Positions 14,288 to 35,872 of a stretch of DNA of 54,936 bases are shown piece after piece. The notes beneath the pieces are model-generated. The model ran no database searches and was not told where the DNA came from. It saw only the letters and a program-made list of their open reading frames with translations. The translations under genes and the position numbers were made by a program. How positions within the stretch are numbered: the first letter of the stretch is position 1; each line of letters starts with the position of its first letter. Source of the stretch: Oscillospiraceae bacterium (GTDB lineage: Bacteria; Bacillota; Clostridia; Oscillospirales; Acutalibacteraceae); assembly GCA_902788995.1 (NCBI GenBank), contig CADAMO010000033.1:1-54936 (forward strand). Reading direction: 5' to 3'.

Positions 14288-14430
14288 TTACTACTCCACC
14301 AATTTAATCGTGAATTATTTATGCGCCGGATAAACGTCGCAAGACAAGGAAGAAACCGCAAGACAGGCTGTCGCCTGTCGAGGATTTCTGACAAGCAGAA
14401 ATCTTCAAGTATTAATTGGTGGAGCAGTAA
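14288..14430. repeat. 143-bp inverted-repeat-bounded structured element
   Basis: Ends are a 17-bp inverted repeat with one mismatch (14288-14304 and 14414-14430, arm TTACTACTCCACCAATT). Inside are two further perfect hairpins: GACAGGC/GCCTGTC (14362-14379) and GATTTCTG/CAGAAATC (14383-14403). No coding signal is evident. It could be a miniature mobile element or a structured RNA. Confidence 0.55.
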
Positions 14431-34860: not shown

Positions 34861-35349
34861 TCACAGCCTTGCTGTGATCCCTTCGTCCTTCGCCAGCACC
34901 GCTTCCGCGTCGGCTTTGCGTTTGGCATCCAGCTTGTCCGCCAGCGCCGCGTCCTCTACGGCGAGGATCTGCAGACAAAGCAAAGCGGCATTGGCGCCTC
35001 CGTTCAGCGCGACGGTGGCCACCGGAATACCGGAGGGCATCTGAACCGTCGACAGGAGCGCGTCAATGCCGTCCATCGCGCCGCCCTTGCAGGGGATGCC
35101 CACCACGGGCAGCGTGGTGTTGGCCGCAACGGCGCCCGCCAGGTGCGCCGCCATGCCCGCCGCGGCAATAATGGCCCCAAAGCCGTTCTCCCGGGCGTGC
35201 AGGGCGAAATCCCGCGCCTGCTCCGGCGTGCGGTGGGCCGAAAATACGTGCGCCTCAAAGGGAACGCCGAATTCCTTCAGAACGTCCGTCGCCTTTTTGA
35301 CCACGGGCAGGTCGCTGTCGCTGCCCATAATGATACCGATTTTTTTCAT
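34861..35349 (-). CDS. purE: N5-carboxyaminoimidazole ribonucleotide mutase
   Basis: A 162-residue PurE, which rearranges N5-CAIR to CAIR. It begins MKKIGIIMGSDSDLPVV (substrate phosphate loop GSDSD) and carries SAHRTPEQARDFA and AAAGMAAHLAGAVAANTTLPVVGIP. Length is normal for the bacterial class I enzyme. ATG 35349 follows GGAGG at 10 nt. First gene of the purine operon, downstream of the riboswitch and a REP pair. No purK is visible in the window, so this may be the CO2-using situation, or purK lies elsewhere. Confidence 0.96.
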   Translation of the reverse strand: MKKIGIIMGSDSDLPVVKKATDVLKEFGVPFEAHVFSAHRTPEQARDFALHARENGFGAIIAAAGMAAHLAGAVAANTTLPVVGIPCKGGAMDGIDALLSTVQMPSGIPVATVALNGGANAALLCLQILAVEDAALADKLDAKRKADAEAVLAKDEGITARL

Positions 35350-35371: not shown

Positions 35372-35463
35372 GTAGCGCGGCACCTCAGTGCCGCTTCAGC
35401 AAAAGATAATTGTGAATTGAAAAAAGTTGTTTTCGTGTTAGCGGCACTGAGGTGCCGCGCTAC
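35372..35463. repeat. BIME-like pair of REP A units in the purE leader
   Basis: Forward A 35372-35395 (GTAGCGCGG foot) and inverted A 35440-35463 around 44 bp of AT-rich DNA. It is placed between the riboswitch terminator and purE, so it is transcribed in the leader. Confidence 0.85.
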
Positions 35464-35472
35464 CAAATGAAA

Positions 35473-35854
35473 CTGGGCGCAGATGTCCCTTTGAAGAACA
35501 ACTGCGCCCAGACGGTCGGCTTTAGGTGGAGAGAGTAACACTGCGCACGCCTGAAAAACGCCAGAGCACACACATACGGGCGTTTTCCTCCTCGCCATAC
35601 GTCAGTATGCCTTCGTCGTCAAGCCACCCGTCTGTATGCACTCTGACGGCTTTCAGGTGCGATGCAGTTTTTGGCTGGAAGATTTTTGCGAGAACGAGGA
35701 AAAAAGCGCAGGAATGCTGACGCCTGCCGAGCATTTTTGACGATGTTATCACGGAAATCTTCCGCCAAAAACCGTACGGAGTGTAACTCTCTCCACCTTC
35801 GGTCTGCTGCTTCACTGCGGTACTCCGCTCAATCCCCGTCGGTCGCAGGAGACC
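35473..35854 (-). promoter_or_regulatory. Predicted ZTP (pfl) riboswitch with terminator, split by a 281-nt linker
   Basis: Read on the minus strand. The 5' subdomain is 35854-35801: outer stem GGTCT/AGACC, the motif TGCGACCGACG, and hairpin GCGG-AGTA-CCGC. The 3' subdomain is 35519-35502 with CCGTCTGGGC. ZTP riboswitches have UGCGACUGGCG, a GG-stem and CCGCCUGGGC, in which GGCG pairs with CGCC. Here the pairing is kept by covariation: GACG (35841-35838) with CGTC (35514-35511). The 3' subdomain overlaps the 5' arm of a 10-bp terminator stem (35511-35502 with 35482-35473) followed by TTTCATTT. It is expected to turn the purine operon on when ZTP accumulates. Not verified computationally. Confidence 0.7.
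35525..35797. other. 273-bp inverted-repeat-bounded insert between the two riboswitch halves
   Basis: Ends are an 18-bp inverted repeat with one mismatch: GGTGGAGAGAGTAACACT at 35525-35542 and its complement at 35780-35797. Inside are more inverted repeats: 35668-35685 with 35755-35771, and AAAACGCC/GGCGTTTT (35555-35562, 35579-35586). On the minus strand an uninterrupted frame of about 97 codons spans it (contains MLGRRQHS and LTYGEEENARMC), without a ribosome site. It could be a mobile insert, a structured RNA domain or a leader-encoded peptide. Confidence 0.55.
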
Positions 35855-35872
35855 TTTGATTGAATTACTCTT

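Follow-up and report, generated by a model that had tools for sequence, protein, structure and literature searches.

A MITE-type mobile element in the aptamer linker of a predicted ZTP riboswitch upstream of purE

Introduction

The leader of the purE gene in an Oscillospiraceae bacterium (genome G000; NCBI GenBank assembly GCA_902788995.1) is, by descent and sequence, a ZMP/ZTP riboswitch with a predicted ligand response, and the linker between its two aptamer halves contains a mobile inverted-repeat element of 275 nt, which is missing from the same leader in a relative of the same genus. Folding models indicate that the switch probably still works with the element inside. The window, i.e., the whole stretch of DNA analyzed here, comprises 54,936 nucleotides (contig CADAMO010000033.1), and among the same-genus relatives with which it was compared G003, G004, and G018 are of particular importance.

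According to the available parts of the published reports, overlap of the aptamer with a terminator and purine genes downstream are reported for ZTP riboswitches (PMC2864571), the length of the linker is not conserved, removal of the linker results in approximately 10-fold weaker ZMP binding without abolishing it, and the two subdomains form the pseudoknot even in trans (PMC7337938). The accessible text of three further sources gives no maximum linker length (PMC10085676, PMC13273304, PMC7484762). A hairpin in a ZTP linker (PMC10687018) and a repeat in a riboswitch leader (PMC3049150) are already known from such partial texts, and no report of a mobile element inside a ZTP aptamer was found in the openly licensed literature, searched mostly by listing.

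The ZTP riboswitch and the purine operon

All parts of the leader are encoded on the minus strand. The consensus promoter of the original prediction is present as a sigma-70-like TTGACA-18-TAAAAT arrangement at 35902-35873 with 11 of 12 consensus matches, and its boxes are found also in the leaders of G003 and G004. The 5' subdomain of the aptamer (35854-35801) contains P1, J1/2 with the pseudoknot strand GACG, and P2, and it reads GGTCT...TGCGACCGACG...GCGG-AGTA-CCGC...AGACC. The 3' subdomain, GCCGACCGTCTGGGC at 35520-35506, contains P3 and its loop with the pseudoknot strand CGTC; P3 and the start of the terminator are identical in G000, G003, and G004. As had been predicted, this 3' half overlaps the stem of a terminator hairpin (35465-35511), the arms of which (35498-35511 and 35473-35486) are 93% complementary and show a stem pairing of 0.996 in the predicted ensemble. 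The U-tract of the terminator is interrupted (TTTCATTT), and a terminator scan of the purE leader, which considered only loops of up to 8 nt, flagged nothing. The halves were expected to lie 281 nt apart; they are indeed far apart, and the measured distance from P1 to P3 is 280 nt.

Searching the whole window against Rfam at gathering thresholds returned no match. In a relaxed search with RF01750 (pfl motif), the 5' half of the native site scored 26.4 bits against a cut-off of 39, and the P3 half gave a separate weak alignment of 14.9 bits. The match of the 5' half has an E-value of 0.036 genome-wide and is second only to another ZTP riboswitch at 66.9 bits. This other one is intact and lies at L001 1234-1319 (G000:C186); the best family for the gene downstream of it is the formate/nitrite transporter family, below the curated cut-off (66.9 vs 232.3 bits). 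With a hidden Markov model built from 70 other purE leaders, the joined halves of the window scored 42.7 bits, while the best of 200 mononucleotide shuffles reached 1.3 bits; the same model assigned 44.3 bits to the G003 leader and 46.8 bits to the joined halves of G004, and the P3 half of the window alone scored 16.8 bits with a model from other purE leaders. The conserved GACYGRCGG and the P2 hairpin of the RF01750 P1-J1/2-P2 subdomain are present in the window, as is the P3 motif CCGYCTGGGC, and J1/2 and the P3 loop are complementary by sequence (GACG:CGTC). The native site shares with RF01750 thus P1, J1/2, P2, P3, the pseudoknot, the overlapping terminator, and the purine genes downstream; it differs by the 275-nt mobile element in the linker and by its score, which misses the gathering cut-off because this element sits there. 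As this cut-off is a detection threshold rather than a biological feature, membership of the native site in the family rests on descent and sequence features and not on the score.

The first gene of the operon is purE (34861-35349), which matches TIGR01162 with 193.3 bits (cut-off 149.6), and its nearest named match among the matches listed is 81% identical and originates from a Ruminococcaceae metagenome assembly. Following purE, purM, purN, and purD score above their NCBIfam cut-offs, whereas the gene with purF as its best-scoring family stays below the cut-off of that family (164 vs 350 bits). A 1230-aa open reading frame follows, which is read as putative purL from its sequence.

An empty site in G003 and ZTP leaders across the genus

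In the relative G003 the leader is the same except that it lacks the DNA between the halves, and it matches RF01750 with 49.6 bits over 86 of 86 model positions, in line with the covariance-model hit that the original prediction had required of the joined halves. The 5' half of the window is identical to this intact ZTP riboswitch at 53 of 55 positions, and the linker between P1 and P3 comprises only 5 nt (GTATA) in G003. Together with the parts in place in the window, this full match of an ortholog bears out the prediction of a ZTP riboswitch in front of purE. In 18 of the 20 same-genus relatives with a purE hit, RF01750 matches at E up to 0.5 no more than approximately 340 nt upstream of purE; G006 and G021 have a purE hit without such an upstream match at this E-value, and G008, G009, G016, G020, and G024 gave no purE hit and so provide no information on this site. 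Sixteen of these 18 matches are above the cut-off, ranging from 45.7 to 62.8 bits, and 15 of the sixteen have short linkers. The remaining one, the purE leader of G017 (L070), contains an extra hairpin in J1/2, before P2, and not in the linker. Scores below 39 bits were obtained for G004 (32.8), G018 (33.4), and the window (26.4), and exactly these three of the 19 purE ZTP sites (18 relatives and G000) carry an element in the linker.

We also counted motifs in 110 purE leaders, comprising 30 genome loci (the window's included; 70 of 79 genomes had a hit) and the best 80 of the named records listed, so that species may overlap. Both halves were present in 50 leaders. No P3 motif within 200 nt of purE was detected in 33 leaders, and in 27 P3 is present while the strict J1/2 string is absent; 26 of these 27 show ACTGACGG or ACCGGCGG shortly upstream, and one is cut off. 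In the 50 leaders scored, the pseudoknot strands are GACG:CGTC in 48 and GGCG:CGCC in 2, and none is mismatched, in agreement with the expectation that this pairing is conserved in other purE leaders. The original prediction had regarded GACG:CGTC as a special compensatory change from GGCG:CGCC; being the local norm in this clade, it was rejected as evidence peculiar to the window. In 44 of the 50 leaders J1/2 and P3 are separated by 41-66 nt; the other six distances are 84, 89, 95, 137 (G018), 318 (G004), and 320 nt (window). Several other purE leaders have longer linkers which fold into hairpins.

A MITE-type element and its relatives

The exceptionally long linker had been described as a closed hairpin. 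This holds for the fold, and the linker is not an evolved one but a mobile element, as judged from the empty site in G003 and from dispersed relatives. The element (35524-35798) ends in 26-nt inverted repeats that are 88% complementary and folds into a Y shape; the leader from 35470 to 35860 folds 11.7 standard deviations below shuffles, and 0 of 100 shuffles were as stable. The same element, 90.9% identical, occupies the same spot in G004, and among the 26 genomes of the genus it was matched only in G000 and G004; a BLAST search of G000 gave a single copy. G028, a member of another genus of the family, contains dispersed full-length relatives, in which the inner motifs are kept and the outer stem is altered on both strands. 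Imposing the G000 fold on eight sequences, which represent essentially two lineages and of which two rows are cut short at the left end, we counted 31 pairs changed on both sides, whereas shuffling gave 17.8 on average and none of 500 shuffles attained the observed value; when the partners were displaced by 1 to 3 columns, the number of such pairs dropped to 4-11.

One arm of the fold, a core hairpin at 35679-35759, is common to a superfamily of elements and matches the model R1 with 87.8 bits, a score to be read knowing that R1 was built from 13 sequences with the window's among them. At E up to 0.01, R1 has matches in 41 of 79 genomes, with 22 in G000 and 54 in G028 (57 with laxer filters). 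Twenty R1 places were fetched, and among the 17 that belong to G000, G004, G020, and G019 there is a MITE-like family with the terminal inverted repeat CTGCTCCACCA. Eleven copies of this family were matched at both ends (5 in G000, 2 in G004, and 4 in G020); they are 142-159 nt long, and 10 of the 11 are flanked by TA at either end. Of the 17 places, six were not matched at both ends, and at least three of these six are cut by a contig end. TA target sites presumably point to the IS630/mariner group. At purE, where TA stands on the right and AA on the left of the element, a TA target-site duplication is possible.

Only a 97-aa open reading frame crosses the element, which is too short for a transposase; this open frame (35522-35815) runs through the whole purE copy. 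The longest forward open stretch measures 93 residues for the G000 element and 94 for that of G004, whereas four copies from G028 do not exceed 65. Comparison of the element with plasmids and phages gave no match, its core pattern was not found in viral contigs, and a promoter scan detected no promoter-like site inside it, for which reason a promoter carried by the element was rejected. Being short, bounded by terminal inverted repeats, devoid of an open frame of transposase size, and absent from the empty site in G003, it is probably a non-autonomous MITE-type element.

A wider superfamily of MITE-like elements in relatives of G000 has a conserved inner hairpin (AAATGCTCG...GCTTT type) and differing terminal repeats where ends were read, which was the case for part of the loci (alignment A1; L018, L020-L023, L027, L032, L034, L040-L042). 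A conserved inside with differing ends is the reverse of what is expected for MITEs, and we know of no name for this group. With bacterial MITEs, as described in the available part of PMC10969869, the element has in common the short length, the terminal inverted repeats, the lack of a transposase-sized gene, dispersed relatives, and a stable RNA fold; the difference is that its relatives have dissimilar terminal repeats around a common inner core hairpin. The window contains a further MITE-like copy of the CTGCTCCACC family at 14289-14429, with approximately 137 nt between TA dinucleotides and one mismatch at the right end; R1 matches within it at 14329-14409 with 37.4 bits.

A second linker element in G018 and the history of the insertion

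In G018, the purE ZTP linker measures 101 nt between P1 and P3 and has 13 matches elsewhere in this genome, several of which are the two ends of one element. This element is an inverted repeat with the terminal repeat GGCTGACGGGA, 271-272 nt long in four copies and 157 nt in one, and TA is found on both sides in three of the five copies with both ends matched. The copy in the purE leader looks like a shrunken form of the GGCTGACGGGA element. R1 has four hits in G018, three of which (E 4.8e-6 to 3.9e-4) lie within GGCTGACGGGA-type elements, and the purE elements of G000 and G018 therefore appear to belong to one loose superfamily; since their terminal repeats differ, independent insertions in the two leaders are suggested.

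At four-fold sites, G003 shows the smallest differences from G000 (0.11-0.20), and G004 is more distant (0.24-0.32). A purE-purF tree of nine sequences likewise splits G000 and G003 from the rest with an ultrafast bootstrap of 100, so that the element-free G003 is nested among element-bearing species. As G003 is the closer sister of G000, its empty state may reflect loss; the nesting could also have arisen through two insertions at the same spot or through recombination. Against the gene tree, the P3-terminator stretch of G000 is 98% like that of G004 and 84% like that of G003, which hints that this stretch was replaced in G003.

Does the split switch still work?

We favor, with reasonable though not high confidence, the reading that a canonical ZTP switch controls the purine operon, that a MITE-type element sits in its linker, and that the folded element leaves the ligand response intact. 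The RNA of the element would close on itself as a long Y-shaped hairpin and would leave approximately 5 unpaired nt between P1 and P3 (GA and AAA), as in G003; with such a short gap J1/2 could still pair with the P3 loop, and binding of ZMP/ZTP would hold off the terminator and turn purE on. In the predicted ensemble, P1 pairing is 0.97-0.99 with the element and 0.95 with the flanks joined; with 200 dinucleotide-shuffled inserts its mean is 0.21, and 6.5% of these inserts reach 0.9. For the P2 helix the pairing is only 0.57-0.58, whether the element is present or the flanks are joined. These values describe an equilibrium, whereas transcription makes P1 before the element. The earlier suggestion that the hairpin may keep the halves close fits this folding model for the present leader; the matching test of insulation failed for G018, where P1 reached 0.55 and 126 of 200 shuffled inserts were as good or better.

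The comparison of G000 and G004, the two species with this element, shows that both aptamer halves are kept and that the element differs at 9% of sites, while the 5' flank differs at 28% (72.3% identical) and the four-fold sites of purE, purF, and purM at 24-32%. With the substitutions in the element, 104 of its 107 pairs are retained (the G000 letter being used for one gap column), a value reached by 9 of 1000 random placements. Differences occur at 14 of 214 paired positions and at 12 of 62 that are unpaired; judged by folding energy, the result is weaker, as 37 of 300 random placements fold as well. The parts of the leader, the relative without the element, the spread of related elements, and the retained fold are computational findings; that ligand binding and antitermination survive is our inference. 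The published variability of linker length and pseudoknot formation in trans agree with the favored reading. The approximately 10-fold weaker binding reported for a ZTP aptamer deprived of its linker, the weak U-tract, the further repeat between the terminator and purE, the single copy of the element in G000, the left flank without TA, and the closer sister without the element count against it.

An insertion of this size might instead have broken the switch; the halves would then be a decaying relic, with constitutive attenuation of purE or read-through into it. The distance of 280 nt instead of 5, the weak U-tract, the entry of a further repeat between the terminator and purE, and the possibility that the nested G003 leader represents repair by loss all speak for this. 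We nevertheless consider it unlikely, given that the conserved positions in both halves are kept in G000 and G004 despite the divergence at four-fold sites of purE, purF, and purM, and that the same holds for the CTGGGCGCAG/CTGCGCCCAG stem of the terminator and for the promoter boxes. That the site is no riboswitch at all and resembles one by chance would agree with its score under the Rfam cut-off; with a full orthologous ZTP riboswitch in G003, on which this explanation was rejected, and with ZTP matches in front of purE in nearly all same-genus relatives having that gene, its probability is close to nil.

Overlapping with the favored reading, the element may have become a working part of the regulator, as a pause site, as a site for an RNase or protein, or by holding the halves together, rather than being only tolerated. 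Its conservation above that of the 5' flank and the four-fold sites with retained pairing, the hairpins formed by the longer linkers of several other purE leaders, and the second element in the same linker in G018 would be consistent with such a co-option. Yet the closer sister G003 manages without the element, an independent later insertion would likewise result in high identity, and mobile elements may preserve their folds for their own sake; we regard co-option as rather improbable.

Relation to known systems and significance

A precedent for the folded linker is the C. beijerinckii pfl ZTP riboswitch, whose linker, according to the available part of PMC10687018, likewise holds a hairpin; its pseudoknot is formed by nt 23-27 and 89-93 of the transcript, while in the window 280 nt lie between P1 and P3, nearly all of which are mobile element. 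Small repeats inserted in riboswitch leaders are exemplified by a BOX element of pneumococci that separates two T-box riboswitches upstream of the trp operon, for which the authors infer working regulation from RNA-seq data, as stated in the accessible part of PMC3049150. BOX lies between two whole riboswitches in that case, whereas the element described here lies inside one aptamer.

The leaders provide a natural experiment, in which the same riboswitch occurs with and without a 275-nt aptamer insert in close relatives, together with a second, seemingly independent case, and this makes testable which distance between aptamer halves is permissible when the insert folds on itself. Moreover, a riboswitch that a mobile element has entered can escape a covariance search: the three sites below the cut-off are the three element carriers among the 19. 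A bolder idea, which we put forward tentatively and regard as doubtful, is that the ZTP linker is a recurrent landing site in this clade, where self-closing mobile hairpins are tolerated and sometimes become working parts, with split aptamers functional over hundreds of nucleotides; if true, mobile elements would supply structured riboswitch linkers.

The further repeat downstream of the terminator, detected by an inverted-repeat scan, is an element with a perfect 24-nt inverted repeat at 35372-35463 on the minus strand, which is followed directly by GGAGG. It is missing at this place in G003 and G004, and similar sequences occur elsewhere in G000 and in G003, G004, G009, and G020.
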